A DNA stretch of 64,000 nt from an uncultured Eubacteriales bacterium (GTDB taxonomy: Bacteria; Bacillota; Clostridia; Lachnospirales; Lachnospiraceae). This document shows, piece by piece, positions 22,301 through 53,670 of this stretch (position 1 is its first letter; each line of letters opens with the position of its first letter). Location: assembly GCA_949283695.1 (NCBI GenBank), contig CASDTX010000025.1, positions 248,001 to 312,000 of the forward strand, read 5' to 3'. Below the pieces are notes generated by a model. It was not told the origin of the DNA. It saw only the letters and a program-made list of their open reading frames with translations, and did no database searches. Made by a program: the position numbers and the translations under genes.

Positions 22301-23638
22301 GAGTCCGAGACATGGGCCAACGCGGCGCAGTTAAGCGGCGGACTTCTGAATGCAGAAGCAGCAGATCAGGCGAAGACAGACGATAACACATGGGGTTACA
22401 CAAGTATCGTCGGAACTGACAGTTCAGCAGATATCACAGGATTCAGCCAGAGCAGCACCGCCAACCCGTACACCGGCGGATGGTGGGCACGCGGCGGAAA
22501 GAATATTACCTATCAGGTAACTCTTCCTGCAGGCGATCACCAGATCATGCTGGGCTGCAAGGGATGGTGGAGCATGGGCCGTCAGATGGATGTTTATTAT
22601 TCCGTGAACGGCGGTTCTGAGACCAAGCTTTGTGATTTCGACGCTGTGAACAGCAAGGAAACCTATTCATCAGGAACGATTACGCTGGATAAGGAATCGG
22701 TTGTGACGCTGACTGTGAAGAAGGCGGCAAGTGATGATCCGATCCTGAGCTGGATCAGCGTATCCGATGTGACGAAGCCGGTTGAGCTTCAGATCACGGC
22801 GAATCCGGAAGATTACGCAGGCGCGAAAGGCGAGACAGCTGTATTCGTGGTTGAGGCACAGGGAACCGGACTGAGCTACCAGTGGCAGTACTGCAACGCA
22901 TCCTCCAATATCTGGAGAGATTCTTCCATGGAAGGAAGCAACAGCGAGCGGGTAAGCGTACAGGTAGCAAGCTACCGTGACGGCCAGAAGTATCGCTGCG
23001 TGGTAACAGACGCGTCTGGAAATACAGCGATATCTGAGGCAGCAGTGCTGACGATGGTGGAGCCGGAGGCGCCGGTGATCACCGGACAGCCTAAGGATTA
23101 TACCGGCACCGTCGGTGAGACAGCGAAGTTCACGGTTCAGGCTTCCGGCACAGGACTGACCTATCAGTGGCAGTACCGCAATGCAGCCGGCGGAACCTGG
23201 AGAAATTCCTCTATGGCAGGAAGCGACACGGCAGAGATCAGCGTGCCGATCACGAAGGCAAGAGACGGCCAGTCGTATCGCTGTGTTGTAACCGGAGCCA
23301 ACGGCGGAAGCGTGACATCGAATGCGGCATATCTGACTGTGGGAGCAGCAGAGACGACACCGGTGATTGTTGCACAGCCGGAAGATGTAGAAGGACCAGT
23401 AGGCACGACGGCAGAGTTTACCGTTCAGGCGGAAGGCGTGGGACTGACCTATCAGTGGCAGTACTGCAACGCGTCCTCGAACATCTGGAGAAATTCTTCT
23501 ATGGCAGGAAGTGATACAGAGACGATCTCAGTACCGATTACAAAGGGCAGAGACGGCCAGAAATATCGCTGTATCATAACATCAGAGGACGGACGGAGCA
23601 TCATATCAGAGGCGGCAGTATTATCAGCCGCAGAATAA
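16355..23638 (+). CDS. Secreted GH30 + GH43 multidomain enzyme, triple Ig tail (2427 aa)
   Basis: An extracellular enzyme with a signal peptide ending near VQAA. The GH30 domain (about 40-750) resembles endo-beta-1,6-galactanases (GWGTSLCWWANRIG). The probable acid/base is E434 in TAMNEPYTNYW and the nucleophile E535 in LWMSEVDGAYTGG. A carbohydrate-binding-like beta-sandwich (about 142-283) is inserted in its N-terminal part. Then follow an F5/8 (CBM32-like) domain (760-906), a Big_4 domain and a Y-x-h-D-C module (910-1158), LamG (1166-1385), two bacterial Ig domains, GH43 (1583-1902, GVRDPFII, WAPEATYD), a second Big_4/D-C pair (1910-2142) and three Ig-like repeats (2146-2427). It likely attacks arabinogalactan side chains. 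ATG 16355 follows AAAGGAGGG. Confidence 0.9.
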   Translation: MKATKKWVAAAAAAALTLTSLPAGPVTVQAAGSVDQTVKLQPWNASTFNDTNGDGLGEFEGWGTSLCWWANRIGYSEQLTAQAAELFFSDAGLDMNIGRYNVGGGDATGEIEEVPVNENAQFYDLETEGRTPEYAGTSMEVGDITAMQSVQYSASDADFGITKGTNVGTFKAIGWINELGSEPGSGDNLHYTVSAEEAGTYTVKLLLTLTGSNKRNVGIRVNGTDDYVVDADTINANTIASGNNNMLFVATISDVALNAGENTVDIGGVGDWTLDFVKMAVIKSGEEGVLSAEDEFTHAEHIIRSDSGVPGYATDVTKIDTTQHPIEWYEENFVRADEECGYAWNYDWDADANQMNILKAAAAASGEDFIAEAFSNSPPYFMTVSGCSSGNTNSNADNLRADSVNAFAAYMADVIEHWNNEGVITFQSTTAMNEPYTNYWGAYSNKQEGCHFDQGESQSRIIEALNAELESKGINIIISGTDETSIDTQITSYNALSDEAKQIVERIDTHTYSGSNREGLKSLAESEGKNLWMSEVDGAYTGGTNSGEMSAALGLAQRMMTDVNGLGSSAWILWNAIDMHADGSEYGQSWVNKGSANDFLNMEDLEAAWKSKSSNGYWGLAAADHNNEEIVLTMKYYGYGQFSRYIRPGYTIIGSNRGSTLCAYDPEGQKAVIVAMNTSDSDKTWKFDLSGFETMGSDITAIRTSGSMEDGEKWADVSASDDIAADTENRAFTATMKANSITTYIVEGVSGILPETTVDTPIVSKIDVDASQVTGGKVWNNGTVNTPQTVVDGNYSTFYDGVDDDNDVPGHVIIDLGEPKEIAAFSYAPRSGFAGRMVEGVIYGSNDGSDWTPIYTIDSAPAEGKDTMVYYGDFNDGKPVTYQYIKYQRESECNLSEFGVWEMASSVESQKTVTAVTLDGSEPKLPDTVEVTLSNGESKEIAVSWDLDGIDVSWDEMDLYDYVAVTGTSSEANGTLEAYILCAPDNLEYLIDCMSGDTPVSRDNEYQSDVWAAASALDSLLNKDSSDQAKTEDNTWGLTTDPSGLNTWAYDQGSTTPLYSYGYWAGKDVSITYDLTLPAGQHTIMLGCYDFWSGRTMDVYYSVNGGEKELLCELTSNHDTGSSAEGTITLEEEAVVTLSVENGGDGDPVLGWISVNETKEPEPADVQAAAHYDMSHEGAVLKDISGNGNDAALYDTADADFAVYGEEEVLQFNNKQYATIPAGVIDDAASFTVQAVVSAPTAGDNWLWCFGDGIGKWGEGTIGDYIFVSPNSGQNGYTATVLSAVKVGSESAGGESRMPAPEEQLGGGYTTITLVSDGTTLTMYMDGKEVSTLNHGKDVSSVIPDGDILGYIGQSLYSPDKKLIANVSDIKIWDTALDAVTVAALAPSAEEKNEMLLADIQDALLNGNASVDEIAADVAFPASVDGVDLTWNVPDNGSIAEDGSVKLPESDETVEVTVTYTCYGEENTVTFPLTVQGENINEILDQAVEELDIPTKDDVRGNITLPAETESGVQIAWTTDHPEIVDVESHEASVEGYDGTPAGVVTRPDADTQVQMTATLTYKEETRTKEFTLNVKAAPQEIAEEDYTDYFFAYFAGEGYSDGEQIYFASSQDGLNWDDLNHNDPVLTSTLGEQGVRDPFIIRSPEGDKFYLIATDLKIYGNGDWNAAQNSGSQSLMVWESTDLVNWSDQRMVEVSAEIGAGCTWAPEATYDPLTGEYVVYWASRTPAVDDKQRVYYAKTRDFYTFTEPELYIEKDQSSIDTTMIENDGTYYRYTKNEGGETNELGALTKTIFIEKSSSVLGTFTNIPSASLNSSDNQWVEGPTIFKLNSDDAAEETWCLLVDDFGGIGYYPLLTNDLESGEFTTPDEGTFQMPSRARHGTPLRITAEEYERVMTAYGTPDEVNAATYMGETPELPETVTINTGSGTVEKAVTWNLDAVSFEGNPFDYVTVTGTVEGSAAEAVAAVQIIPKNIEYMIDCNNLESETWANAAQLSGGLLNAEAADQAKTDDNTWGYTSIVGTDSSADITGFSQSSTANPYTGGWWARGGKNITYQVTLPAGDHQIMLGCKGWWSMGRQMDVYYSVNGGSETKLCDFDAVNSKETYSSGTITLDKESVVTLTVKKAASDDPILSWISVSDVTKPVELQITANPEDYAGAKGETAVFVVEAQGTGLSYQWQYCNASSNIWRDSSMEGSNSERVSVQVASYRDGQKYRCVVTDASGNTAISEAAVLTMVEPEAPVITGQPKDYTGTVGETAKFTVQASGTGLTYQWQYRNAAGGTWRNSSMAGSDTAEISVPITKARDGQSYRCVVTGANGGSVTSNAAYLTVGAAETTPVIVAQPEDVEGPVGTTAEFTVQAEGVGLTYQWQYCNASSNIWRNSSMAGSDTETISVPITKGRDGQKYRCIITSEDGRSIISEAAVLSAAE

Positions 23639-23649
23639 ATTCTGCAAGT

Positions 23650-23713
23650 GCAGGGAAGTCCGCGGGGAACCGGAGAAACAACCGATTTACCGGCGGCACG
23701 CAGGCTTCCCTGC
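23650..23713 (+). promoter_or_regulatory. Inverted repeat between the two giant CAZyme genes
   Basis: GCAGGGAAG (23650-23658) pairs with CTTCCCTGC (23705-23713) around a GC-rich, potentially structured loop. The structure ends a few bases before the GAAAGGA ribosome binding site of the next gene. It may shape mRNA processing or translation within the operon. Confidence 0.45.
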
Positions 23714-23731
23714 CGTGAAAGGAAATTGAGT

Positions 23732-26700
23732 ATGGGACGAACGACGAAGAAAAAGGAATATGGCAAAGCAGTGCTGGCAGGTGCGTTGTCACTGGCCATG
23801 GTCATTCAGCCGATGACAGTATCCGCGGTGGAAGGCAGCAGCATTACCGAGGATCAGATTATCGCAAATGATTACCTGCTGTATCTGGCGAACTGCGGAA
23901 CACCAGATTCATCTGTGGTTCCGGAAGGCTTCAGCAGCATGGGTCTGTATCAGTCCAGCGTGGATCAGCGCTACGGCGAAGACGCGGGAACCGGACTGAC
24001 ATGGGGACTGGCGGAAGATACGGAGAATACCAGAGCCGTCAGCGGCGGATCTTCCGCTACTTCTCTGACAGGCAGCTACATCTATATGTCAGACAATGAA
24101 GAAGTGATCTATGAAGCAGGGAAGAGCGGATTTCTCTATTCCTTTGAGATGCCGGAACGGGAGAGCAATGAGTATCTCGTAACGGTTGGGATTAATAACC
24201 CGTGGTCACAGTGGGGAACGAAGTATGAAGATATTATCATCGAAGACACGATGGTAGAAGAGAATCTGACAGCAGTGGGATTCGAAAAAGAATATGAAGT
24301 CACTGTAACAGACGGAGAGCTGAATGTGTTTGTTCAGGCGCATCCGGACAGCAGGGAAGGCTCGGGGGATGACCCGGTCATCAGCTACATTATCGTAAAG
24401 GCAAAACCGCAGTATACGCTGGATGCCCTGCAGATCCAGATCGATTCTTATAAGGCCAGAGTGGAAGGCAGCGCTTACGGAGAAGCATCCAAGGCTGCTT
24501 TTGACGAGGCAATCGAAGCTGCACAGGCACTGGTTGACAGCGGCGCGGCGACAGAAGAAGAGATCCAGACCGCACTTGCTGCCATCGAGGAAGCTTATGC
24601 GAATCTGAAACCGGTATATACCTATACATCGATTACAGGTACTGCCGGGGAGCGGATGTTTGACAACAATGGAAACAAGATCCAGGCTCACGGCGGCCAG
24701 ATCCAGCAGTTCACCATAGACGGTGTGACGAAGTGGTACTGGTACGGCGAGGACAAGACGAACGGATACCGTCCGGTAGAGGGTGTTCATGTGTATTCGT
24801 CAACGGATCTGTACAACTGGACCGATGAAGGTCTTGCGCTTGACGCGATTGAAGTGCCGGATGAGCACTACGGCGACGACAGCTATGTAGACCTGACGAT
24901 CTTTGAGACGAATGAAGAGCTGAAAGCCCTGTACGGCGATTATGCGGGCGTGGCATCCGACGATCCGACGTATGAGACCAAGCTGGAAGAAGTTTACTGG
25001 AATCTGGCAGAAGACCGCTGCGTTATGGAGCGTCCGAAGGTTCTCTATAATGACGCGACAGGACAGTATGTGATGTGGTGGCACTGCGACGGCCGTACGC
25101 CGACGAATACAGCGGACTATGGAAAGGCCAGAGCAGGCGTGGCGGTTGCGGATAACCCGGCAGGCCCCTTCAAGTTCGTAGGCACCTATCTGCTGGCGTC
25201 CGATCCGGACCGCACGAATCATGGGTTTGACTCTGAGGGCGGACATGTCCGTGACATGAACCTGTTTAAGGATGATGACGGAACGGCTTATGTACTTTAT
25301 TCATCCGAAGGAAATGAAGTAATGTACATCGCCAGACTGAATGACAGTTACACCGGACTGGCAAAAGACGCAGAGGACATGGTGCTGGGCGAGGACTTCA
25401 CGATCAGCAGCACAGACTCCAGAGAAGCTCCGGCCATGTTCAAGTACAACGGCATGTACTACCTGATCACCTCCGGCTGTACCGGATGGGCTCCGAACCA
25501 GGCGCAGTACGCAGTAGCGGAAGATCCGCTGGGACCTTGGACCAGAATGGGCGACCCGTGTGTGGGCGACTCCAATAACAATACATTCCAGACCCAGAGT
25601 ACCTGCGTGATCCCCGTAGATGCGGAGAACGGCAAGTTCATCTATATGGGCGACCGCTGGTTCAATCCGGATTCAGGCGGAGACTTAAGTGATTCCAGAT
25701 ATGTATGGCTTCCGATCGAGTTCGGTTCAGACAACACGATCATGATCAAGGACTACAGCAACTGGACACTGGATGAGCTGGAAGGAAAGGGAAGTATCTC
25801 CATTGATACAGAACTTCCGAAAACAGCAGAGTCTGCGGGAAGCCTGATGGAAAGCCTTCCGGCAGCGATCGATGTGACAATCGGCGGCGTAACCTACAAT
25901 GATACACCGGTAGCATGGAGCCTGGATGAAGACGTGGCAGCGCTTGGCGACTATGTGCTTGGCGACGTTACGGTAACAGGAAGTCTGGCAGAGCTGAACA
26001 GAGAATTTACGATCAGCGTATTCTGCTGCCCGCCGTCACTGGTATACTTTGCAGACTGTGCGACAGGAACAGACAATCCGTCAGAGATCTATGACAGATT
26101 CGCGGCGGGAGCTGACGAACTGCTCAACATGGTTTCTGACCAGGCATACGGAAACGATAACGGAATCAACTGGGGATATACAAGCACACCGGGAGCATCC
26201 GGCGGCAGCTCTTCCCAGGATATGGGATCACACACACCGGGTGATTTCTATGACAGCGGCTGGTGGGCAACCAGCAGCGGAACCATTGATTACAGCTTCG
26301 AGCTGGATCCGGGAAGCTATGCAGTGATGACCGGATACCAGGAGTGGTGGAGCAGTACAAGAGGAATTAAGATCACAGTGAAGTCTGTGAGTGCGGACGG
26401 AACTGAGACAGAGATCGGAACGACCACATTCACACTGTCAGGCCAGCAGGATATGCAGCAGAGAACAGATGTGGTGGTACCGGATGATTCCGATCATGTA
26501 ATTGTAACGATCAGCAAGAATTCCGGCAGCGATCCGGTTCTGAGCTGGATCGGTATCGTAGGCACAGAAGCGGCAGAGCCGACGGAGAACCTGGTTGTAA
26601 ACGGAAGCTTCGAGAACGGATCTACAGGATGGAATCTGGGAAGCGGAGCATCCATCCAGACCGGAAGCGACGCTCCGGACGGAACGCAGTATATGCGCGA

Positions 26701-29700
26701 TAATGGAGCAGCACACAGCTGGGGCGACGGAAGCAGCCAGTCTGTAGCAGTTCAGCCGGAGACAGAGTATGTGCTTACTGGAACCGCGAAGACAGACAGC
26801 AGTGCTCCCTACTATGTAGGTGCGAATGTGGACGGCAGAGAGATTTATGCCGTATTCTCCACAGACAGCAGCTATACAGACACAGCGGACAGTGCTGAGA
26901 AGCTTGCTTACGACGTACATGCAGGCGTGACAGACTGGACGGACTTTGAGATCCGGTTCACAACAGGTTCTGAGACAGAGTCTGTAAATGTTTATACCTG
27001 GATCGACAGCGGATACGGCTATCTGGACAATGTAGTTCTTAAGGAAGTCAGCGGCAAGTTAGACTGGACAGAATTCGACGCGCTGATCGCTGAGATCGAC
27101 GCAATGGATGAAGCGGAATACACAGAAGATTCCTGGGCTGAATTCCAGACCGTTGTAGCGGAAGCGAAAGAATTCAAGGCAAATGCGTCCGACGAGACGA
27201 AGCAGAGAGAGATCCGCCAGATGATCTCCACACTCAAAGACGCGATGGAGAACCTGATTTCCATCCATGAGCCGACAGGCGACGTTACTTATTATGTAGA
27301 CGCTGAAAACGGAAACGACGATAATGACGGTACAACACCGGATACCGCATGGAAGACGCTTGCAAAGGCATCCTCCATCCGTCAGCTGAAAGAAGGCGGA
27401 AGCATCCTCCTGAAAGCAGGAAGCGTATGGAACGGCGAGCAGCTGACCGTGAAGAACGCTCAGGGAACGAAGGAGAATCCGGTTGTCATCGGAAGCTACG
27501 GCGAAGGGGCGAAACCGGTCATCAACGGAAACGGAGCGAACTGGGATTATGACAGCAAGGAAGAACTTGCGGCAGTTCACATTTACAACAGTGAGCACAT
27601 CGTCATCGAGAACCTGGAGATCACAAACTGGGATTCTTCTGTAGGCAGCGCATATGTACAGAGCAGCAAGCTGCTGTCCGGTCTTGTAGTGGAGAACAAG
27701 GACGCGGGAGCACTTTCGAATGTAGTGATCCGCAACAATGAGATCCACGATGTGAACGGAAGAATGGCAGGCGGAGCTGAGAAAGCGGCCGGCGGTCTGA
27801 TCGTGGTTGTAACCGGCGGCGGAACCAACCATACAGGTAAGGTTGAGTCCTGGTTCAACGGATTGACCATCGATGGAAACGAAGTTTATAATGTATGCCA
27901 CGAAGCAATCTACATGGAGAGCGTATGGGCAAGCCGTACATTAGTAGGCGGCACAAGCAGCGATACAGGCTATCAGAATGCCGGAAACAGCAACTGGGTC
28001 GGCAGCAATGATGTCCTGATCGAGAACAACTATGTACACGATGTAGCCGGCGACGGTATCGTGCCGATCAATACAACGGACGCACTCGTTCAGTACAACC
28101 TGATCGACAACTCAGCGGACAGCAACTGGAATTACAGTGCGAACCCGAACCATGCGGCGCTGTGGACATGGGATACAGACAATGTAACATTCCGTTACAA
28201 TGAGGCGTTTAACACGTCCAAGGATTCTAAGGGAACAGCAGTCGGAAACGACAGTATGGCATTCGACTTTGACTATGGTGTACAGAACTGTCTGTACGAG
28301 TACAACTACAGCCATGACAATCTGGGCGGATTCCTGATGCTCTGCCCGGGACCAGGAGCAACGGTCAACAATATCGCAAGATATAACTTAAGTGTAAACG
28401 ACGGCCTGTATGAGGGAGCACCGATGATCCGCGTGGGCGGAGGAAAATACGGTTCTAACGGCGTACAGATCTATAACAATACGATGTACTGGGAGGGCAC
28501 AGGATATTCGGCAGCTCTTGCACAGTCATCGGATTGGGAAGGCTCTGTTGTGACAGATGTATCGATCTTCAACAACATCTTCTACGGACCGGCTGTATCA
28601 GGCAGCGTGAAACAGTCTGACGGCGTATCCTATTACAACAACCTCGTATACAGCGAGGATGGAAGCGCACAGGCAGTTTACCAGGCAGCAGCAAATGACG
28701 AGAACGCGGTTTATGAGGATCCGATGTTCGCGGACGTAACAGATTTCACGACAGGAAGCTGGGCAGACGGCGAGACAACGCTTGGCACAGCAGACGGATT
28801 CAAGATCCAGGAAGGCTCACCGGCCATCGACGCAGGAGCGGAACATCCGGATGCACCGGCAAGCGCTCCGTCAGCAGTAGCGGACGAGCTGGTTCCGAAC
28901 ACGACAGACAAACCGTTATCTGACTACTACGGCAACGCGCTTACCGATGGAAAGAACGATATCGGCGCCAATGAGTATACGGAAGAAGAAGTGAAGGAAC
29001 TGCGCATTGTGGAGGATCCGGCAGACGCGGAAGGCCTGTCAGGTGAGAACGCAGTATTTACAGTGAAAGCGGAAGGAAACGGACTGAGCTATCAGTGGCA
29101 GTACGCAAATGCAGATTCATCTGTATGGAGAGCTTCCTCTATGAGCGGCAGCGACACACCGCAGATCACCGTGCCGATCGCAAGCTACCGCGACGGTCAG
29201 AAATACCGCTGTGTTGTCACAGACAGAGCGGGCAACAGCGTGACATCTGAGAGCGCATCGATCAAGATGACCGTACCGACAGGAACACCGGTGATCACAT
29301 CTCAGCCGGAAGACTATACAGGAACATCCGGTGAGACCGCAATGTTCAAAGTGGCAGCAGAAGGAAACGGACTGAGCTATCAGTGGCAGTACTGCAACAA
29401 GGACTCCAATGTGTGGAGAAACTCTTCAATGACAGGAAGCCAGACCGCAGAGATCAGAGTAGAGATCGCGTCCTACAGAGACGGCCAGAAGTACAGATGT
29501 GTTGTCACCAGTGAAACTGGCGCAAGTGCAACTTCAGACGCGGCAGCGATTATCGTCGGCATCGCGGACGACGCACCGCATATTGTAAGCCAGCCGGCAA
29601 GCTATGAAGGCGCGGCAGGCGAGACCGCAGTGTTTGAAGTGAAAGCAGAAGGCGAGGGCCTGACCTACCAGTGGCAGTACTGCAATGCGAACTCCAATAT

Positions 29701-29857
29701 CTGGAGGACGTCATCCATGAAAGGAAACGGAACGTCAACATTAAGCGTACCGGTGACTGCGGCAAGGAACGGCCAGAAATACCGCTGTGTGATCACAAGC
29801 GGAACAGGAAGAGTGGTAACGACAGAGACAGCAGTGCTGACAGTTACCGCAAAGTAG
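23732..29857 (+). CDS. Secreted GH43_24-like + beta-helix enzyme, triple Ig tail (2041 aa)
   Basis: An extracellular enzyme with a signal peptide ending near VSA. A D-C-type binding module comes first (about 40-215), then a FIVAR helix bundle (228-292). The GH43 domain (297-680) has EGGHVRDMNLFKDDDGTAYV and TFQTQST, as in exo-beta-1,3-galactanases of subfamily 24. Next are a Big_4/D-C pair (690-947), a CBM4/9-like domain (950-1106) and a second FIVAR (1110-1178). A right-handed parallel beta-helix (1183-1753) ends in a choice-of-anchor-Q-like SPAIDAG segment. Three Ig-like repeats (1755-2041) close the protein. With the upstream GH30 enzyme it fits breakdown of type II arabinogalactan. The beta-helix activity is unknown. 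ATG 23732 follows GAAAGGA. Confidence 0.88.
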   Translation: MGRTTKKKEYGKAVLAGALSLAMVIQPMTVSAVEGSSITEDQIIANDYLLYLANCGTPDSSVVPEGFSSMGLYQSSVDQRYGEDAGTGLTWGLAEDTENTRAVSGGSSATSLTGSYIYMSDNEEVIYEAGKSGFLYSFEMPERESNEYLVTVGINNPWSQWGTKYEDIIIEDTMVEENLTAVGFEKEYEVTVTDGELNVFVQAHPDSREGSGDDPVISYIIVKAKPQYTLDALQIQIDSYKARVEGSAYGEASKAAFDEAIEAAQALVDSGAATEEEIQTALAAIEEAYANLKPVYTYTSITGTAGERMFDNNGNKIQAHGGQIQQFTIDGVTKWYWYGEDKTNGYRPVEGVHVYSSTDLYNWTDEGLALDAIEVPDEHYGDDSYVDLTIFETNEELKALYGDYAGVASDDPTYETKLEEVYWNLAEDRCVMERPKVLYNDATGQYVMWWHCDGRTPTNTADYGKARAGVAVADNPAGPFKFVGTYLLASDPDRTNHGFDSEGGHVRDMNLFKDDDGTAYVLYSSEGNEVMYIARLNDSYTGLAKDAEDMVLGEDFTISSTDSREAPAMFKYNGMYYLITSGCTGWAPNQAQYAVAEDPLGPWTRMGDPCVGDSNNNTFQTQSTCVIPVDAENGKFIYMGDRWFNPDSGGDLSDSRYVWLPIEFGSDNTIMIKDYSNWTLDELEGKGSISIDTELPKTAESAGSLMESLPAAIDVTIGGVTYNDTPVAWSLDEDVAALGDYVLGDVTVTGSLAELNREFTISVFCCPPSLVYFADCATGTDNPSEIYDRFAAGADELLNMVSDQAYGNDNGINWGYTSTPGASGGSSSQDMGSHTPGDFYDSGWWATSSGTIDYSFELDPGSYAVMTGYQEWWSSTRGIKITVKSVSADGTETEIGTTTFTLSGQQDMQQRTDVVVPDDSDHVIVTISKNSGSDPVLSWIGIVGTEAAEPTENLVVNGSFENGSTGWNLGSGASIQTGSDAPDGTQYMRDNGAAHSWGDGSSQSVAVQPETEYVLTGTAKTDSSAPYYVGANVDGREIYAVFSTDSSYTDTADSAEKLAYDVHAGVTDWTDFEIRFTTGSETESVNVYTWIDSGYGYLDNVVLKEVSGKLDWTEFDALIAEIDAMDEAEYTEDSWAEFQTVVAEAKEFKANASDETKQREIRQMISTLKDAMENLISIHEPTGDVTYYVDAENGNDDNDGTTPDTAWKTLAKASSIRQLKEGGSILLKAGSVWNGEQLTVKNAQGTKENPVVIGSYGEGAKPVINGNGANWDYDSKEELAAVHIYNSEHIVIENLEITNWDSSVGSAYVQSSKLLSGLVVENKDAGALSNVVIRNNEIHDVNGRMAGGAEKAAGGLIVVVTGGGTNHTGKVESWFNGLTIDGNEVYNVCHEAIYMESVWASRTLVGGTSSDTGYQNAGNSNWVGSNDVLIENNYVHDVAGDGIVPINTTDALVQYNLIDNSADSNWNYSANPNHAALWTWDTDNVTFRYNEAFNTSKDSKGTAVGNDSMAFDFDYGVQNCLYEYNYSHDNLGGFLMLCPGPGATVNNIARYNLSVNDGLYEGAPMIRVGGGKYGSNGVQIYNNTMYWEGTGYSAALAQSSDWEGSVVTDVSIFNNIFYGPAVSGSVKQSDGVSYYNNLVYSEDGSAQAVYQAAANDENAVYEDPMFADVTDFTTGSWADGETTLGTADGFKIQEGSPAIDAGAEHPDAPASAPSAVADELVPNTTDKPLSDYYGNALTDGKNDIGANEYTEEEVKELRIVEDPADAEGLSGENAVFTVKAEGNGLSYQWQYANADSSVWRASSMSGSDTPQITVPIASYRDGQKYRCVVTDRAGNSVTSESASIKMTVPTGTPVITSQPEDYTGTSGETAMFKVAAEGNGLSYQWQYCNKDSNVWRNSSMTGSQTAEIRVEIASYRDGQKYRCVVTSETGASATSDAAAIIVGIADDAPHIVSQPASYEGAAGETAVFEVKAEGEGLTYQWQYCNANSNIWRTSSMKGNGTSTLSVPVTAARNGQKYRCVITSGTGRVVTTETAVLTVTAK

Positions 29858-29878
29858 AACGTTGAAAACAGCACGGGC

Positions 29879-29924
29879 TCTGCCGCACATCGAAGGGTGC
29901 GGCAGACCCTGTGCATTTTCAGGG
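29879..29924 (+). promoter_or_regulatory. Tandem hairpins between the CAZyme and foldase genes
   Basis: A perfect 10-bp stem, TCTGCCGCAC (29879-29888) with GTGCGGCAGA (29897-29906), is followed at once by CCCTG/CAGGG (29907-29924). There is no T run. The ribosome binding site of the next gene follows directly. Partial attenuation or mRNA stabilisation is likely. Confidence 0.55.
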
Positions 29925-29939
29925 CAGGAAGGTAAGACA

Positions 29940-31004
29940 TTGAAAAAACGTGTTTTGGTTTTATGTACGGCATTTCTATGTACAGGAGTGATGCCCGGAT
30001 GCGGCTCTGACCAGGCGGACGGGCCGGAGAAAGAGGAGACTCCGAATGCGGACCATGTCGTCATGTATCTGGACGGGGACGCTGTGACAGAAGAGGAATA
30101 CGCTCTGATCGCGGCAGAGAACCGGAACCAGATCACCATGCAGTATACGACAGACCAGGTGAACGGGGAAGACTTCTGGCAGACGGAAATCGACGGAGCA
30201 GTCCCCTGCAGTCAGCTGGAGGAGCTTGTGCTTGAGGATCTGAAGTATGATTATGCAGTGAAGCATCTCGCCGTGGAGGCCGGGGTGACGGAAGATTATA
30301 CATACGAAGACCTGCTGGATAACATGGAAAGCGGGAACCAGGAGCGGGCGGACCAGCTGGCCGAGGAAGAGGTTGTTTACGGACTGACGGAATACGATGA
30401 GGCAGCCTATTATAACTACTGGTATTCCAATCTGGAAACACAGTGGAAAAACGAATGGATTCAAGGTGAGGCTGACGTTGGTGAGACAGACTGCAGGGAG
30501 TATTATGAGGAACATGCCGAGGACTTTACCTATGAGACCAGCGTCAGAATCCTGTACGCTGAGTTCTCATATCGCTCGGAGGAGGACTACGGAGAAGCGC
30601 AGCATTGGGGTCTGAGCCTGTCCCGGGCCATGGAAGCTTCTGAAGATCTGGAAGAGATCAAAGAGGCTTTCCCGGAGGCAGAGTTTCGAGAGCTGGAACT
30701 CAATGATTTCGACACCCAGGAGGGCATGAGCGGGGCTTATCTTCAGCGGTGGGAATACGCATCACAGCTGGAGGAAGGTCAGGTCTGCGGACCTTATGAA
30801 GATCATGGGCGGATCTGTGTGATGAAATGCATCAGCCGTACAGAGAACGGAACGCTGGAATTCGATGACGTGAAAGACAGAATTGAACGGATGCTGCAGG
30901 TAGAAGCCGCTGACCGGTGCATTCAGGAGACAGCAGACAGTATGAAAGTGGAAAGCGGTAAAATTTCAGCAGAATCTGTCATTATGAAGACAGTGAGCGA
31001 TTAA
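29940..31004 (+). CDS. PrsA/SurA-like peptidyl-prolyl isomerase lipoprotein
   Basis: A probable extracytoplasmic foldase of about 354 aa. The signal peptide ends in a MPGC lipobox (Cys21 from the TTG start at 29940), so it should be membrane-anchored. The middle has a SurA_N-like helical region. The C-terminal half (about 180-330) has a parvulin-like pattern (SVRILYAEF, GQVCGPYEDHGRICVMKC). TTG 29940 is preferred to ATG 29862 because AGGAAGG precedes it and it starts a clean signal sequence. Its place right after two very large secreted enzymes suggests it helps fold them; this is inference. Confidence 0.7.
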   Translation: MKKRVLVLCTAFLCTGVMPGCGSDQADGPEKEETPNADHVVMYLDGDAVTEEEYALIAAENRNQITMQYTTDQVNGEDFWQTEIDGAVPCSQLEELVLEDLKYDYAVKHLAVEAGVTEDYTYEDLLDNMESGNQERADQLAEEEVVYGLTEYDEAAYYNYWYSNLETQWKNEWIQGEADVGETDCREYYEEHAEDFTYETSVRILYAEFSYRSEEDYGEAQHWGLSLSRAMEASEDLEEIKEAFPEAEFRELELNDFDTQEGMSGAYLQRWEYASQLEEGQVCGPYEDHGRICVMKCISRTENGTLEFDDVKDRIERMLQVEAADRCIQETADSMKVESGKISAESVIMKTVSD

Positions 31005-31027
31005 CGGACGGGAGGAGAATGTTGAAC

Positions 31028-31513
31028 ATGAAGAAGAAAACAGGACTTTTATTATCACTGATATTGATTGTAATATTTGCGATCTCCGGATGCGGGGACG
31101 GCGACGCCGATAAAAAGGAAGGAACGCAGCAGAGCCAGGAGGACGAAAATGTTGACAGCTCAAAAGCGTTAACCGTGGAGAATGATACCTTCACTGTGGA
31201 TGACTTGATCTCCGGAATCGGATCGGAAGAGGCCGGACTTCTGACGATCCTTGGCGTGACCGAACCGGCAGAGTCCTATGAGGCGAATCTCTTTGGCCAG
31301 AAAGCGACTGTTACAATAACAGCGGATGAAGGGACTGTCAGCGCAGTCAACATGGAATTCTCATCTGTAGATGCAGGCTCCGTGCGAAATGCTGTTGCAG
31401 AACAGCTTGGACAGGACGGAGAGACGGCAGACGACGCTACCACATGGACATCAGGGGACCGGACAATTGTATTAACAGAGACGGATACAGGATGTACAGT
31501 GGAAATAAAGTAG
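31028..31513 (+). CDS. Small lipoprotein of unknown function
   Basis: A 161-aa protein with a hydrophobic signal and an ISGC lipobox (Cys22). The mature part begins with an acidic low-complexity linker, followed by a compact beta-rich domain without recognised motifs. ATG 31028 is chosen because GGAGGAG lies 10 bp upstream; ATG 31019 is too close to that site. It sits between the foldase and the exopolysaccharide genes and is probably in the same transcript. Confidence 0.72.
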   Translation: MKKKTGLLLSLILIVIFAISGCGDGDADKKEGTQQSQEDENVDSSKALTVENDTFTVDDLISGIGSEEAGLLTILGVTEPAESYEANLFGQKATVTITADEGTVSAVNMEFSSVDAGSVRNAVAEQLGQDGETADDATTWTSGDRTIVLTETDTGCTVEIK

Positions 31514-31556
31514 AACAAGACAGAAGACAAAAACAGACGCTAGGGCGGGGGACTTT

Positions 31557-32279
31557 ATGGACAAGATGAAAAATACAGCGTGCAGCCAGCTGCACTTGCA
31601 AAAGCAGAATACAAAATATTACATCATGAAGCGGGCAGCAGATATCGGCATATCTTTGGCAGGAATTGTGCTGCTGTCCCCTGTGCTGGCGGCCACCGCA
31701 GCGGCAGTCAAACTCTATGACGGCGGGAATGTGCTGTACAGCCAGATCCGTCTGACACAGAACGGGAAGCCGTTCCGTATCTATAAGTTCCGGAGTATGA
31801 GGATGGATTCTGAGAAGGACGGCATTGCCCGCATTGCTCAGAAAGACGACCAGCGCATCACCCCGGTAGGGAAGATGATCCGCAGACGGCATATTGACGA
31901 GCTGCCGCAGCTGTTTAATATTCTCAAAGGCGATATGTCCCTGGTGGGGCCAAGGCCGGAGCGTCCGGAGATCATGGAGAAATATATGCAGGAGCTTCCG
32001 GAATTCAGCCAGCGCCTTCAGGTGAAGGCAGGCCTGACCGGTTACGCGCAGATCTATGGCACGTATTATTCCACCCCCAGTGAAAAGCTGGAGATGGATA
32101 TGACATATGTTGAGCGGGCGTCACTCCTGGAAGACTTCCGGCTCCTGCTCGCGACAGGGAAGATCCTTCTGGCGGGGGACAAGGAAGAACAGGAACAAAA
32201 GAAGAAGATGCTTACCGTCAGTGCAGATTCCACAGGCTGGGATCATGTGCGCTGTGAAGGGGTCAGAGTGAAATATTAA
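31557..32279 (+). CDS. Exopolysaccharide initiating sugar-1-phosphate transferase
   Basis: A membrane-bound phosphoglycosyl transferase (Bac_transf/WcaJ-C family, 240 aa) that moves sugar-1-phosphate from a nucleotide sugar to undecaprenyl phosphate, starting the repeat unit. It has one hydrophobic segment (about 30-52), the YKFRSMRMDS motif, HIDELPQLFNILKGDMSLVG and GPRPERPE. It is the short monotopic form, lacking the N-terminal membrane domain of WcaJ. A close paralog lies at 53700-54383. It opens the Wzx/Wzy operon. Confidence 0.92.
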   Translation: MDKMKNTACSQLHLQKQNTKYYIMKRAADIGISLAGIVLLSPVLAATAAAVKLYDGGNVLYSQIRLTQNGKPFRIYKFRSMRMDSEKDGIARIAQKDDQRITPVGKMIRRRHIDELPQLFNILKGDMSLVGPRPERPEIMEKYMQELPEFSQRLQVKAGLTGYAQIYGTYYSTPSEKLEMDMTYVERASLLEDFRLLLATGKILLAGDKEEQEQKKKMLTVSADSTGWDHVRCEGVRVKY

Positions 32280-32306: not shown

Positions 32307-33254
32307 ATGGGCAGAGTAAAATACAGCGTTGTAATTCCCCTGTATAATAAGGCAGAATACATTCAGCGGACGATCAAGAGCGCGCTGAAGCAGAATTTCC
32401 AGGACTTCGAGGTGATCGTTGTAGACGATGGTTCTACAGACGATTCTCAGGAGCAGGCGCAGCAGGCCGCTTCGGATAAGGTCCGAATCATTCCGCAGGA
32501 GAATCAGGGAACCGCAGCAGCCAGAAACACCGGGATCCAGCATGCCTGTGGAGAGTATATTGCGTTTCTTGACGCGGATGACGAATGGGGGCCGCATTAT
32601 CTGGAGACCATCGACCGCCTGACGGAAGCATATCCACAGAGCGATATCTTCGTCACGGCCTACCGCATCGCCATGGGCGGAGGGAAATACAACTATTCCA
32701 GCCAGCTTACACCCGCCCAGGGGTGTCTTGACAGCTACTGGATGACCTTCCAGTATCCTTATGATTTCGTGTGGACTTCCGCAGTGACGATAAGAAAAAC
32801 CGCCATACTGAAAGCCGGATGCTTCAAACCCGGAGAGAAGATCGGCCAGGATCTTGACTTGTGGGCCCGGGTGGCGCGCGGCAATCCCAAAGTCGCATAT
32901 TCCTCCAGGATGTGCGTGACTTATAACAGAATGGCGGGACAGAACGCCAGAAGCAGAGAGAAGATCGCCTGTGCGGCCGCATTTCTCAAAGATCTGGAAG
33001 AAGAGCTGGAAAATACAGCACACACCAGAGAAGAGTTAGAGATGATACAGTATAAATATGATCTGAAAATGACGGTATACGTATTTACCTGTATCCTTGC
33101 CGGAGAGAAAACACGTGCCCGGAATGTGTATGCGGCATGGCGAGGGAAGAGAACAGCCAGAACAAGGCTGCTTCGGGCAGGACTGAAAGCGGCAATGATG
33201 ATGCCGGGAGGTGTGAACAGACTGCTGTATCAGGTACGGCTGAAGGTGTTTTAA
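32307..33254 (+). CDS. Family 2 glycosyltransferase
   Basis: A 315-aa inverting glycosyltransferase with a GT-A fold. SVVIPLYNKAEYIQRTI lies at the N-terminus, VVDDGSTDDS near residue 36, and the DxD-like FLDADDEW near 90. It adds a sugar to the lipid-linked exopolysaccharide intermediate on the inner face of the membrane. The donor and acceptor are not predictable. The C-terminal part is basic and helical, as in membrane-associated GT2 enzymes. Confidence 0.9.
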   Translation: MGRVKYSVVIPLYNKAEYIQRTIKSALKQNFQDFEVIVVDDGSTDDSQEQAQQAASDKVRIIPQENQGTAAARNTGIQHACGEYIAFLDADDEWGPHYLETIDRLTEAYPQSDIFVTAYRIAMGGGKYNYSSQLTPAQGCLDSYWMTFQYPYDFVWTSAVTIRKTAILKAGCFKPGEKIGQDLDLWARVARGNPKVAYSSRMCVTYNRMAGQNARSREKIACAAAFLKDLEEELENTAHTREELEMIQYKYDLKMTVYVFTCILAGEKTRARNVYAAWRGKRTARTRLLRAGLKAAMMMPGGVNRLLYQVRLKVF

Positions 33255-33294: not shown

Positions 33295-34536
33295 ATGATA
33301 ATAGCAGCAGCACAGTGCCTGTCAGGAATATGGATTTTATACCGGTACAGACAGAATTATTTTCGGGCGATTGTCCTTTTTACATGTTTCTATATGGTTT
33401 TCCTGACTGCAGCAGAAGAAATGGACGTTACATTTACTCTGTATATTCTGTTCACTTTTTTTTCTCTTGCCATGGCTGAGAAGAAATTATCGAAAGGAAC
33501 GCTTCTTTTTCTGATATTTCTGCTGGTTTACGGATTCATCGGAGTACTTTTCCAGGAACCGATGAATACGGCCAGCGTATTGTGCACTAGATACGGTTTT
33601 TTAGTGCTGGGGCTGATGCAGTGCAGTCTGCATCTGCCTCAGTCTTTTGATGTCAGAAAGGAGATTGTATTTTCTCTTAGATGTGGGACAGCGACAGAGC
33701 TATTCATTTCAGCTTACCTGATGGTGCATGGCGATCTCGAGAGCAGACTGACGATTAATCATCAGGCAGTGGGCGGCTCTATGTCCATTGGACTTATTTT
33801 GTTGATTCTTGCGGTTTATTTTTATGACAGAGAGCAGTGGAAGAAACATCCTCTTTGGATTTATCTTGCTGTAAATCTTTGGGTTGTTGTGATGTCAGGA
33901 ACAAGAGGATATATTGTTATGGCATTTTTGCCCTTAATTCCGTTTGCGTGGAATTATTTTATGGAGAGAAAGTATTACAGGATGCGCTGGGCTGCAGGCG
34001 CTGTGATTTTGTGGATTTGTGCAGCGCTATTGATTTTCCGGTTTGAAGATGTTTATGAAACTCTCTCGGATCTATTGCGCTTGAATGAATCAATTGGTTA
34101 CCGAGTTTATGAAAATGCGTTTGTGAGAGAACTATATGTTATAGAACCATGGTATCATAAATTGGTTGGATTTGGGCTTGGAGGACGCGCAAACCATCTT
34201 CCAGAGACGCTTTCTGTAGCATGGGAAGCGGCGGGAGGCAGAGTCTGGATGGTGGAGAAATTGCTGACGGAAACGACTTGTCATAATTACTGGTACACAG
34301 TACTTTTCAAGCAAGGGGCACTGGGGCTCGCGGCAGTGTGTACGGTTATTATTCATTTTGTCAGCGAGAGCTTTAAAACAAGGAAATACAGCGGGGGAAT
34401 GTTCTGGACTCAGTTGTTTTTTGGTGCTGGAATTTTAATTTCGCTGACCTATAGAATTTCATCAACTTGTGGAATTTTTGAAACCCTCGTTTTACTCTGG
34501 ACAGCCAGAATATTTCAGGAAAAACAGGTAAGATAA
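33295..34536 (+). CDS. Wzy-type O-antigen/EPS polymerase
   Basis: An integral membrane protein of 413 aa with about ten hydrophobic segments and a larger extracytoplasmic loop (about 255-330) containing YHKLVGFGLGGRANHLPE. This loop pattern is typical of Wzy polymerases and O-antigen ligases. The base composition turns markedly AT-rich here. It lies between a glycosyltransferase and the flippase, as expected for the polymerase. Confidence 0.8.
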   Translation: MIIAAAQCLSGIWILYRYRQNYFRAIVLFTCFYMVFLTAAEEMDVTFTLYILFTFFSLAMAEKKLSKGTLLFLIFLLVYGFIGVLFQEPMNTASVLCTRYGFLVLGLMQCSLHLPQSFDVRKEIVFSLRCGTATELFISAYLMVHGDLESRLTINHQAVGGSMSIGLILLILAVYFYDREQWKKHPLWIYLAVNLWVVVMSGTRGYIVMAFLPLIPFAWNYFMERKYYRMRWAAGAVILWICAALLIFRFEDVYETLSDLLRLNESIGYRVYENAFVRELYVIEPWYHKLVGFGLGGRANHLPETLSVAWEAAGGRVWMVEKLLTETTCHNYWYTVLFKQGALGLAAVCTVIIHFVSESFKTRKYSGGMFWTQLFFGAGILISLTYRISSTCGIFETLVLLWTARIFQEKQVR

Positions 34537-35969: not shown

Positions 35970-36510
35970 GCTGTTGCTTTGCAGGAACGGATACCGTCGC
36001 GCAGAGTATCTCAAAAAAAGACACTATTTTCACAGGCAAGGAAAGAACTGTTTTTTTATCCCTTTCAATTTTGGAACAGAGCCCCATTTGCTGGCATTTG
36101 GCGATAACGTGCATGTAGCCACAGGAGTGACCTTTATCAACCATGATGTTATAGCAAAAATGTTCCGGCATATGGAGAGTTATAACGGTTCGGAGCTTGT
36201 AAGCCGGGCCGGCACGATTGAGATCGGGGACAATGTCTTTATTGGAGCAGGGAGTACGGTTCTGTATGATGTGAAAATCTGCAATAATGTAATTATCGGG
36301 GCAAAAAGCCTTGTCAATAAAAGCATTGCAGAAAGCGGAGTTTATGCGGGAGTGCCCGCGGTAAAAATAGGAGACTTTGACAGGTATTTTGAAAAAAGTC
36401 TTGAGTTTTCAGGGAAAGTAAACTGGACAGAAAACGAGAAGAGGAAAGACATTGTAAAGAAGCAGAAAGAGTATTTTTGGGGAGGCAGGGAGAATGAAAA
36501 TGCAGTATGA
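35944..36510 (+). CDS. Hexapeptide-repeat acyltransferase
   Basis: A 188-aa left-handed beta-helix acetyltransferase-like protein. The hexapeptide pattern runs from about 45 to 145, with IEIGDNVFIGAGSTVL and VIIGAKSLVNKSI, and the family's GVPAVKIGDF closing motif. The probable role is O- or N-acetylation of the exopolysaccharide repeat unit. It overlaps the flippase by 26 bp and the next gene by 17 bp. Confidence 0.85.
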   Translation: MRRKILMIRLLLCRNGYRRAEYLKKRHYFHRQGKNCFFIPFNFGTEPHLLAFGDNVHVATGVTFINHDVIAKMFRHMESYNGSELVSRAGTIEIGDNVFIGAGSTVLYDVKICNNVIIGAKSLVNKSIAESGVYAGVPAVKIGDFDRYFEKSLEFSGKVNWTENEKRKDIVKKQKEYFWGGRENENAV

Positions 36511-37381: not shown

Positions 37382-37425
37382 AGTAAGGAGTGTCAAATTT
37401 TATTGAAGAAATATTGGAGGATAAA

Positions 37426-45070: not shown

Positions 45071-45078
45071 ATCATGTG

Positions 45079-45110: not shown

Positions 45111-45172
45111 ACTTATAATCGGATTAACAAATATAACAACACAATAACAAAATAATAGGGAGGAGAGAGAAC

Positions 45173-46675: not shown

Positions 46676-46683
46676 AATTTTGA

Positions 46684-46732
46684 GGACAGGTACTTTCCAG
46701 GCAGGGCATGCCGTTGAGAGACCTGTCCCTTT
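46684..46732 (+). promoter_or_regulatory. Intercistronic hairpin after the binding-protein gene
   Basis: GGACAGGT (46684-46691) pairs with ACCTGTCC (46721-46728), followed by CTTTT. It lies directly before the AAAGGAGG site of the first permease gene. Partial termination here would favour the binding protein. Confidence 0.5.
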
Positions 46733-46749
46733 TGAAAGGAGGATATGCT

Positions 46750-47667: not shown

Positions 47668-47680
47668 GGAGCGTACAATC

Positions 47681-48559: not shown

Positions 48560-48574
48560 AAGGAGGACGAGAAA

Positions 48575-49375: not shown

Positions 49376-49405
49376 CGCAATACGGCAGAAAAAGGAGAAT
49401 GGATT

Positions 49406-50905: not shown

Positions 50906-50928
50906 GCCCGCGTGACCAGAAGCTGGGA

Positions 50929-53670
50929 TTGGAAGACGAGGACATGTCAGACTACTGTTATTGGGACGGCAGTATCATCAAAGACGAAGACACTGGAAAG
51001 TATTACATGTTCGCAAGCCGCTGGAACCAGGCAGGCGGACACTGGGGTCAGGACGGGATCTCAGGCTGGCAGGGTTCCCAGGCTATCTATTCGGTCAGCG
51101 ACAATCTGTATGGACCCTATGAGGATATGGGCCCGATCTGGCCGGACTATTATGACGGGGCAGGCCATAATGTCTTCGCGCTGAAACTAAGTGAAAACGA
51201 TCCGGTTTATGAAGAGGGCTATCGATATGCGATTTCCGTCAGTGATACGGGAATGCACGGGGACGAGATGAACGGGACCCTGCATATTGCCAAAAGCCTG
51301 GACGGCCCCTGGGAGCATATCGGCAAGATGAATATCGGCAGCGGGGAATTCGGGCTGTCCAACATCTGCATTCTGGTCCGCCCGGACGGACGGTATGAGG
51401 CGATTAACCGAAACGGCGACCTGGCAACAGCAGACAGTATTGAGGGACCATGGACAGTGGAGAGCAACGGACTGTGGTGGAACGTGGAGGGAATGCCCAA
51501 CACGAACATCGAAGATCCGGTGATCTGGTATTCTGACGGTCTCTATCACTGCGTGGCAAATAAATGGGACGCAAAAGAGGCCTACTATCTGACATCAGAG
51601 GACGGCCTGACGAACTGGGTGCGGCATTCCGGCGTAGCCTACACGCCGCAGGAAACGTTCCTGAAATATACAGATGGTACGGAAAACAACTGGACGAAAC
51701 TGGAGCGGCCGAACGTATATATTGAGGACGGCACGCTGAAGGCAGTGACATTTGCGGTAATCGACGTGGAGAAAGAAGAAGATTTCGGCAATGACGATCA
51801 CGGCAGCAAGATTATCGTAGTGCCTTTTGACGGGGAGTCGCTGAAAGAGTTCGCGAAGACAGACGTATATAAGGATCCCATGTCAGACCGAGGCGGCATC
51901 GCTCCCGTCGAAGACAGCAACGTTCAGTCATGGCAGGACGAAGAGTGGAAGAACTATGGAGCAGAGCATTATCTTCAGCTGCAGAGAAATACGGAGCAGG
52001 GACTCTTCGGAGAAGGGGAAAAAACGAACTGGGATTATGACTGCAAAATCACTTTCCTGAAATATGATCTGTCGTCCTTCAACCTGGCAGAAGACGCCTC
52101 TAATCTTGAAAGCGCGGTTCTGTCTCTTGTGTTTGAGAGTCAGGAGGCCGGAGACGCGGCAGAAAATCAGATTCAGGCGGCCCTTGCTGATTCTGACTGG
52201 ACCGAAGGAACCGGGCGTGAAAGTACCAACGGCAATTACGCTGAGGAGGGCTCCCTGGTCTGGGGAAATCAGCCGGAGATCTTCTATGATCCTGAGAATG
52301 TGGAACACACGACGGCAATCTCAGAGCCTTTCGATATGACGGACGGTGTTCAGGAAGTAAAAATTGACGTTACAGAGCTTGTACAGACATTGAAAGCCGG
52401 GCATCCGGATGAGGATATCATGACACTGGCACTCTGTGAGACCGCAGGCAGCCGGATCCGCATCGGCAGCAAGGAAGGCGGAGATGATCTCAGAGCTCCG
52501 CGTCTGATCGTAAATACGCTCGGTGCGGCAGCAGAAGGCATCAGCCTTGACAGAGAACGCCTTGAGCTTGAAACCGGTGATACACTGACATTGAAAGCAA
52601 CTGTAAGTCCCGAGGACGCTTGGAATCAGAATGTGATCTGGTCATCGGAAGATCCGGAAATCGCAGATGTAGACGAAGCTGGGACAATCACCGCGAGAAA
52701 AGCCGGATCTACGGTGATCACGGCCACAGCGGCAGATGGCGGTTTCCAGGCCTTCTGCGAAGTAACCGTAAAAGAAAAAGAAGAGCCGGATGATCCGGAA
52801 CAGCCCCTGCGCATTACGGCGAATCCGCAGGATGTGGAAGGAGCGGCAGGAGAGAACGCGGTCTTTACGGTAAAGGCAGAGGGCAGCGGCCTGAGCTATC
52901 AGTGGCAGTATGCCAACGCGAATTCATCGATCTGGAGAACCTCCTCTATGAGCGGAAACGACACACCGGAAATCACCGTGCCCATCGCTTCTTACCGGGA
53001 CGGCCAGAAATACCGCTGTGTTGTGACAGATCAGAACGGCAGCAGCGTGACATCCGAGAGCGCGGCTGTAAAAGTTATTATACCTGCGGATACCCCGGTC
53101 ATTGTGTCACAGCCGGAAGATTTCACGGGAATATCCGGAGAGACGGCAGTATTCACAGTCGAAGCAGAAGGAACCGGGCTCAGTTATCAGTGGCAGTACA
53201 GCAATGCAGGATCCAGTGTATGGAGAAATTCTTCCGCGGCAGGCAGTACGACGGAGGCAATCTCTGTGGAGATCGCTTCTTACAGAAACGGCCAGAAATA
53301 CAGATGTGTGGTAACCGGAGCATCCGGGCACAGCGTAACCTCTGACGTGGCGAAAATCATTGTCGGAGCTGCAGAAGGAGCGCCCGTGATCACAGGCCAG
53401 CCGGAAAGCTATACAGGTGAGGTCGGTGCGACAGCAGTATTTGAAGTCAAGGCAAGCGGAACCAATCTGACGTATCAGTGGCAGTACTGCAACGCAAAAT
53501 CTAATATCTGGAGAGCTTCCTCCATGGAAGGCAGTACAACGTCCAAACTGAGCGTGCCGGTTACAGCAGGCAGAGACGGCCAGAAATACCGCTGCGTAAT
53601 AACCGGCGGCAATGGAAGAATGACGATCTCAGAGACGGCTGTGCTGGAAATTTCCGAACAGAAAGAGTAA
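50929..53670 (+). CDS. 5'-truncated GH43-like enzyme with triple Ig tail
   Basis: It has a five-bladed beta-propeller glycosidase-like domain (DYCYWDGSIIKDEDTG, MFASRW, NTNIEDPVIW), then a CBM96-like domain (LQLQRNTE to LIVNTLG), Big_2, and three Ig-like repeats (about 625-913) like those of the enzymes at 16355 and 23732. No signal peptide is present. The same frame stays open upstream to about 50800 and encodes VGPRDQKLGLEDED just before this start, a motif I associate with the mature N-terminus of this family. TTG 50929 and ATG 50944 both lack a properly spaced ribosome binding site. The 5' end, with its signal sequence, was probably lost by a rearrangement. It is likely not secreted and may be a pseudogene. 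Confidence 0.75.
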   Translation: MEDEDMSDYCYWDGSIIKDEDTGKYYMFASRWNQAGGHWGQDGISGWQGSQAIYSVSDNLYGPYEDMGPIWPDYYDGAGHNVFALKLSENDPVYEEGYRYAISVSDTGMHGDEMNGTLHIAKSLDGPWEHIGKMNIGSGEFGLSNICILVRPDGRYEAINRNGDLATADSIEGPWTVESNGLWWNVEGMPNTNIEDPVIWYSDGLYHCVANKWDAKEAYYLTSEDGLTNWVRHSGVAYTPQETFLKYTDGTENNWTKLERPNVYIEDGTLKAVTFAVIDVEKEEDFGNDDHGSKIIVVPFDGESLKEFAKTDVYKDPMSDRGGIAPVEDSNVQSWQDEEWKNYGAEHYLQLQRNTEQGLFGEGEKTNWDYDCKITFLKYDLSSFNLAEDASNLESAVLSLVFESQEAGDAAENQIQAALADSDWTEGTGRESTNGNYAEEGSLVWGNQPEIFYDPENVEHTTAISEPFDMTDGVQEVKIDVTELVQTLKAGHPDEDIMTLALCETAGSRIRIGSKEGGDDLRAPRLIVNTLGAAAEGISLDRERLELETGDTLTLKATVSPEDAWNQNVIWSSEDPEIADVDEAGTITARKAGSTVITATAADGGFQAFCEVTVKEKEEPDDPEQPLRITANPQDVEGAAGENAVFTVKAEGSGLSYQWQYANANSSIWRTSSMSGNDTPEITVPIASYRDGQKYRCVVTDQNGSSVTSESAAVKVIIPADTPVIVSQPEDFTGISGETAVFTVEAEGTGLSYQWQYSNAGSSVWRNSSAAGSTTEAISVEIASYRNGQKYRCVVTGASGHSVTSDVAKIIVGAAEGAPVITGQPESYTGEVGATAVFEVKASGTNLTYQWQYCNAKSNIWRASSMEGSTTSKLSVPVTAGRDGQKYRCVITGGNGRMTISETAVLEISEQKE

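Follow-up and report, generated by a model that had tools for sequence, protein, structure and literature searches.

Three tandem CWB2 repeats, described for C. difficile together with the PSII locus, retain functionally different proteins non-covalently, and the tandem triplet of S-layer homology (SLH) domains binds the producer's own pyruvylated secondary cell wall polymer (PMC6081394, PMC5817068). In RbmA of Vibrio cholerae, the exopolysaccharide of the producer itself is bound by tandem FnIII domains, which have a related beta-sandwich fold (PMC5605196). The C-terminal immunoglobulin (Ig)-like domains of the mannanase RiGH26 from Roseburia intestinalis were earlier proposed for cell attachment, its location being backed by immunofluorescence (PMC6385246). 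Here, we describe a C-terminal triplet of Ig-like repeats shared by three enzymes, P0001 to P0003, in a 64,000-nucleotide (nt) stretch of DNA from an uncultured bacterium of the Lachnospiraceae (the window; G000:C25:248001-312000, source genome 79% complete). The question addressed was how a gut Firmicute keeps large secreted enzymes at the cell when these have no sortase signal, SLH or choline-binding repeat.

By analogy, the Ig-triplet arrangement would work like the CWB2 and SLH triplets as a member of neither family. In contrast to CWB2, the window tail has an Ig fold with no CWB2 match, its operon looks Wzx/Wzy-type, and its binding is putative; in contrast to SLH, there was no SLH match in the tails and no pyruvyl-transferase match in the window operon. 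RbmA is a Gram-negative matrix protein and not an enzyme tail, and was likened to the window tail by description, not sequence. RiGH26 was likewise compared by description, and the excerpts of its description contain no polymer operon. The GH136 system LnbX/LnbY (PMC7335108) was compared with the GH136-like domain of P0002 and the LnbY-like gene next to it, a likeness that accounts for the rotamase gene and not for the Ig tail. Open-licence papers gave no direct account of Ig tails connected with exopolysaccharide or with anchoring at the cell surface in these bacteria; as far as this literature shows, what is new is the operon and the lipoprotein linked to the tail, and the evidence from tail swapping.

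We propose that the triplet is a C-terminal module that would retain secreted glycosidases non-covalently on the producer's surface. Its ligand would most likely be the polysaccharide of the operon starting just behind the Ig-tailed enzymes (small lipoprotein, transferase, GT2, Wzy, Wzx, TupA, Wzz, BY-kinase), and a common receptor would explain why several enzymes have the same type of tail. We infer the export of the enzymes, the binding, the ligand and the staying of the operon product on the cell. Judged from sequence, retention at the producer's surface is likely; the operon polysaccharide is the best single guess for the ligand, with the small lipoprotein as the main alternative; and the full statement, retention together with this ligand, has about an even chance of being correct.

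The Ig-like tail and its enzymes

16313..23638, + strand: P0001 (P1), a 2441-amino-acid (aa) secreted enzyme with GH30-like, F5/8C and GH43 arabinofuranosidase-like parts and the Ig triplet
22781..23635, + strand: Ig triplet of P0001 (repeat alignment and profile match)
23648..29857, + strand: P0002 (P2), a secreted enzyme, 2069-aa frame, with GH43, GH136 and the Ig triplet
28994..29854, + strand: Ig triplet of P0002 (alignment; AlphaFold2 model of three Ig domains)
50929..53670, + strand: P0003 (P3), a 913-aa frame with a catalytic-looking region of no named family, DNRLRE, Big_2 and the Ig triplet
52801..53667, + strand: Ig triplet of P0003 (repeat alignment and profile match)

Each of the three proteins is closed by three Ig-like repeats of ~96 aa. 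The same triplet ends the proteins at 23638, 29857 and 53670, as the original prediction had it: the motifs YQWQY, W-x-x-SS and, as the form of the third, (D/N)GQ-x-YRC were found in 9/9 repeats. Its description of all three proteins as giant did not hold for P0003, with only 913 aa. The nine-repeat alignment had 31 invariant columns and a mean column identity of 69%, and the tails of P0001 and P0003 were 60% and 71% identical to that of P0002, respectively. Pfam matches above the curated cut-off identified the window tails as Ig_3/I-set domains. AlphaFold2 folded the P0002 tail into three Ig domains (predicted local distance difference test, pLDDT, 93; predicted template modelling score, pTM, 0.53), the closest solved structures to this model being animal Ig arrays; the best solved matches by sequence profile were 9ncf ('Immunoglobulin-like domain protein') and 9c2d ('tail protein'). 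The YRC cysteine is kept in 9/9 repeats and a second cysteine, directly after YQWQY, in 5/9, which is unusual for an Ig domain.

In the window proteins the triplet is the extreme C-terminus, with 0-2 aa beyond the profile match, and the same position was found for 11/11 tails of the close subfamily (the G050 contig C25 tail left out). The strong repeat matches in the source genome are these nine only, a tenth match being weak (E 1.2e-4). The prediction that the window proteins carry no sortase signal, SLH or choline-binding repeat was borne out: P0001-P0003 showed no sortase-type C-terminal signal (xxxTG, hydrophobic stretch, basic end) by script pattern, and no Pfam match to CWB2, SLH or choline-binding repeats at E<=0.01.

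By solved-structure matches, P0001 resembles endo-beta-1,6-galactanase (GH30), and P0002 resembles exo-beta-1,3-galactanases (GH43) and lacto-N-biosidases (GH136); NCBIfam reported the arabinofuranosidase-like stretch in P0001 and the DNRLRE domain in P0003. The substrate may be type II arabinogalactan. No signal peptide was found in the 913-aa frame of P0003. Because its homologues in genomes G032 and G093 carry a signal peptide before the same conserved start, '(V/I)G(P/A)RDQ..GLED', P0003 would be 5'-truncated or frameshifted. The first residues present in homologues are missing from it as well, and it sits directly behind a beta-lactamase-family gene. The true starts of P2 and the rotamase gene probably lie some 80 nt inside their open reading frames (ORFs).

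Linkage of the tail with a polysaccharide operon

29862..31004, + strand: rotamase lipoprotein, LnbY/GH136I-like (relatives adjoin GH136 proteins with other tails)
31019..31513, + strand: small lipoprotein ('lip'), no family assigned
31557..32279, + strand: polyprenyl-phosphate sugar-1-phosphate transferase, first copy (PF02397)
32307..33254, + strand: GT2 glycosyltransferase (65-79% identical in linked genomes)
33295..34536, + strand: Wzy-like polymerase (weak PF04932, below its cut-off)
34539..35969, + strand: Wzx-like flippase (no Pfam match; named from position and hydrophobicity)
35944..36510, + strand: hexapeptide transferase
36494..37381, + strand: TupA-like ATP-grasp
37390..38163, + strand: Wzz chain-length protein
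38160..38897, + strand: BY-kinase-like ATPase
53700..54383, + strand: second sugar-1-phosphate transferase, without further polysaccharide genes

The gene order AraC-P1-P2-rotamase-lip-transferase-GT2-Wzx-TupA is common to the window and two genomes of its genus, G011 (Mediterraneibacter glycyrrhizinilyticus An427) and G050. In these two, the whole series runs AraC, P1, a further Ig-tailed enzyme, P2, rotamase, lipoprotein, transferase, GT2, Wzx, TupA, Wzy, Wzz and kinase, with one more gene between P2 and rotamase in G050 and a hexapeptide transferase also present in the G011 stretch. Identities to the window are mostly ~64-88%. GT2, Wzx and TupA are 64-79% identical, compared with only ~30-35% for Wzy, Wzz and the kinase, and the polymerase and chain-length genes (33295-34536, 37390-38897) look exchanged. 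Both genomes also have the Ig tail on GH28-like and GH43 proteins, and three tandem terminal repeats are common to several unrelated proteins in the window, G011 and G050. Two of the G050 tails (X and Y; L032, L033) are 97% identical, a recent duplication.

The strongest evidence for a link of the tail to the operon over a link to the substrate came from UBA5416 (L054, titled Eubacterium). Its enzymes are a GH85 endo-beta-N-acetylglucosaminidase with an Ig pair and a GH2 beta-galactosidase that also has laminin-G domains. The Ig pair of the latter is encoded by the overlapping ORF that follows, and we take these two ORFs as one gene split by a frame change. Behind the Ig-tailed enzymes follow the lipoprotein, a full-length transferase, GT2, Wzy, Wzx, TupA, Wzz and the kinase, with identities to the window of 45% for the lipoprotein, 65% for GT2, and 71% and 55% for two pieces of Wzx. 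Since UBA5416 keeps tail, lipoprotein and operon with different enzymes, the tail appears to go with the operon and not with the substrate. The conserved linkage was seen in four genomes of two genera.

As a control, a transferase model (clean, of 17 sequences, six hits) was applied to the ORFs of the fetched loci. A transferase was present in 4/4 close Ig loci, and also in G226, in comparison with 0/10 non-Ig loci with the same enzyme families and 25-51 kb of context (G216, G169, G236, G233, G103 (two), G223, G003, G093, G032). The exact value is 0.001 (4/4 vs 0/10), or 0.015 counting each genus once (2/2 vs 0/10), and even the latter is generous, the window being the discovery locus. Six more non-Ig loci of 5-19 kb each, kept outside the count of ten, had no transferase either (G190, G200, G223 C24, G197, G032 C59, G169 C36).

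The relatives sampled were 397 members of the family and 58 of the genus. At E<1e-140 the triplet was found in 3/58 genus genomes, namely the window's, G011 and G050 (3, 3 and 6 copies), with weak partial matches in three further ones; in the family sample of 397, no genomes passed E 1e-50 other than the source genome and two of genus g74 (1e-59). When one genome for each of 84,980 species was scanned by pattern, 14 loci were returned, including G011, four loci of G050, two Eubacterium metagenome-assembled genomes and more distant ones. The small lipoprotein was detected at E<1e-80 in the same 3/58 genus genomes, with weak matches near its N-terminus in four others; its only strong match in the family sample was in the own genome, and 22 others reached <=33.5 bits. 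GT2 was found at E<=1e-60 in 4/395 relatives: the three triplet genomes and G226.

Within the window, the association is uneven. The original prediction placed the tails beside exopolysaccharide genes, with a transferase behind the last Ig gene at both loci. At the second locus, the transferase indeed begins 29 nt past the Ig gene, whereas at the first (31557) it begins 1699 nt past it, with the rotamase lipoprotein and the small lipoprotein between. Conversely, the first locus alone runs on into polysaccharide genes (GT2, Wzy-like, Wzx-like, hexapeptide transferase, TupA, Wzz, BY-kinase); the second transferase is followed by a strong terminator-like hairpin (54399-54426), a cupin/AraC-binding gene and a BPD_transp_2 permease. 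As to a Wzx/Wzy-type operon, PF02397, GT2 and Wzz were clear, Wzy was below its cut-off and Wzx had no Pfam match in the window. From P1 to the kinase all ORFs lie on one strand with gaps of -26 to 43 nt, so co-transcription is plausible, and promoter and terminator scans showed no clear boundary within the operon. The counts of these scans were above the shuffle means at 14700-33500 (24 vs 16.7 and 20 vs 13.1) and close to them at 37000-55800. The two window transferases, out of five in the source genome, grouped in a single clade with the transferases of G011 and G050 (support 1.0) but were not clearly sisters (support 0.255), in a tree that also included four wrong-strand sequences.

The rotamase was considered as an anchor component and rejected, since its relatives also adjoin GH136 proteins with choline-binding or fn3 tails (L146, L150, L151). 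The gene therefore belongs to GH136, in agreement with LnbY/GH136I. A two-component system, an ABC transporter and an esterase lie between the two Ig loci, and this stretch is flanked by two beta-lactamase-family serine hydrolases (40302-41810, 49406-50905) without evident signal peptide.

Exchange of tails on related enzymes

The catalytic part of P0002 had matches in 17/395 relatives, three of them Ig genomes, and that of P0003 in 6/245. From the non-Ig genomes, 19 C-termini were classed by reading them and by Pfam of the last 400 aa: 4 sortase-type (two different enzymes of G032, G003, G093), 4 choline-binding (G216, two proteins of G103, G190), 2 dockerin (both G236), 4 fn3 (two each in G200 and G233), 3 Big_2 (two in G223, one G169 protein) and 2 LRR_5 (another G169 protein, G197). 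The sortase-type class was assigned from C-terminal letters and the script, not from Pfam; L146, with a partly masked tail, and L149, which runs off its contig, were classed by their visible letters, and the Big_2 match of L155 is just under the Pfam cut-off. Tails left unclassed were those of G159 (masked) and G054 (broken frame), and of G230, G171, G529 and G044, which end with the catalytic part. At L116, L117 and L146-L161, at least six kinds of tail were seen on related Lachnospiraceae enzymes, mostly one kind per genome.

A single tail type was found in 10/11 genomes with at least two classed proteins (shuffle mean 1.87; 0/100,000 shuffles reached 10) and, without the Ig genomes, in 6/7 (matched in 9/100,000 shuffles), figures that are not a strict probability because duplication could have given adjacent genes the same tail. 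Among these tails, an anchoring role is established for choline-binding repeats, sortase signals and dockerins, and not for ends of the fn3, Big_2 or LRR_5 type. The tail type mostly follows the host and not the enzyme, as would be expected of an anchor, and such tail swapping supports a role of the Ig triplet in surface retention.

Candidate receptors and other explanations

Several observations weigh against a retention triplet whose ligand is the operon polysaccharide. Three of the four Ig loci are orthologous within a single genus and the fourth is in another, and about two independent loci carry the argument; moreover, the second window locus holds a transferase only. Eight distant Ig loci (L055, L056, L058-L061, G130, G433), from the more distant group (30-47% identity), yielded no transferase and nothing that matched the polysaccharide proteins of the window in the sequence examined, some of it short (an additional partial Pfam scan covered L055 and L058 only); the transferases of G130 and G433 are on contigs other than the Ig arrays. 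One G050 copy lies on a 44-kb contig (C25) that has no transferase, and the P3-like gene of G050 begins ~9 kb beyond the transferase. G226 has GT2, transferase and Wzx, but the 27 kb read contains neither Ig triplet nor lipoprotein. The tails of UBA5416 hold two repeats, not three. Sharing of tails within a genome may partly be duplication, its proteins often being neighbours, and the lipoprotein is an equally linked candidate receptor. Finally, the tails track enzyme orthology, with no concerted change within a genome; concerted tail evolution per genome, a possible prediction of a genome-specific ligand, was rejected for this reason.

Because the distant Ig loci are mostly without transferase, the claim is limited to the close subfamily. 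Among the distant Ig loci, only L057 (9569-11119) was found within a polysaccharide cluster. Its protein of four Ig domains, which has an apparent signal peptide but lacks a catalytic domain, lies directly behind a flippase gene, and no transferase was found in the 21 kb of this locus. The L053 contig (5.3 kb) is too short to tell about a transferase, and the Ig repeats of L058 are not C-terminal. In G226 (L106 1988-19217), the transferase, a GT2 65% identical to the window's, Wzx and a hexapeptide set are followed by giant secreted-looking proteins, two of which share an LRR-like C-terminal repeat region (by eye).

Polysaccharide genes lay near the triplet, as expected, in 4/4 close-subfamily loci and were not found at the eight distant ones in the sequence examined. 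The idea that the triplet binds the producer's own coat is favoured by the synteny, including a second genus, and by the 0/10 control, but in view of those distant loci the coat is a candidate ligand. Similarly, the absence of a sortase signal on the tails agrees with the predicted sortase-free anchoring, but only as an alternative anchor at most: sortase-type proteins (script pattern) lie ~17-20 kb upstream in G011 and G050, and the Ig tail would therefore be an additional route and not a substitute for a missing sortase.

The tail might instead dock on the membrane-fixed small lipoprotein as the anchor, the polysaccharide being incidental. Nothing tested was more tightly co-distributed with the close triplet than the lipoprotein (3/3, no strong match in the other 55 genus members), which is also present in UBA5416 and, in the 27 kb of G226, is missing together with the Ig triplet beside such polysaccharide genes. 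However, a terminator-like hairpin (by eye) parts it from the enzymes in UBA5416, where it heads the polysaccharide genes, and a single small protein would need to accommodate as many as six enzymes. Its fold search, with the best E of 0.0087 to CAP/SCP-domain proteins and none <=0.001, counts in the same direction, and we consider such docking unlikely.

It is similarly improbable that the triplet is a mere spacer or stabiliser, its linkage to the operon reflecting hitch-hiking neighbours in one transferred island. The few independent loci would suit this explanation, as would the long Ig arrays of G130 and G433 without nearby transferase and the single related Ig domains of G054 and G046, which lie inside proteins that also have sortase-type ends. 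In UBA5416, however, the enzymes differ, yet Ig tail, lipoprotein and operon stay together at 45-71% identity, and the close-subfamily tail occupies the extreme C-terminus (11/11), where related enzymes elsewhere have other tails.

Binding of an external glycan (arabinogalactan, mucin) by the triplet as a substrate-targeting module, with which the arabinogalactan-type likeness of P0001 and P0002 and the weak carbohydrate binding linked to phage Ig-like domains would agree, is quite improbable, given the same tail type with GH85 and, as inferred for the split gene, GH2 in UBA5416 and with GH28-like and GH43 proteins in G050/G011, and given the known surface anchors or other tails at the same place on related enzymes; the alternative in the original prediction, that the repeats bind the plant substrate, is weakened by the same UBA5416 enzymes.

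The comparison of tails offers a testable way to recognise anchors, in which homologues keep the catalytic part and exchange the tail by host. Somewhat tentatively, and at less than an even chance, the Ig triplet may represent a further repeat-based non-covalent anchor beside SLH and CWB2, with a dedicated polysaccharide and a helper lipoprotein encoded in the same block as its receptor, and may act as a transferable cassette that changes the anchors of glycosidases in gut Lachnospiraceae. A polysaccharide operon and a small lipoprotein would then have an assigned role, and the feeding apparatus of a commensal would be tied to its surface coat.

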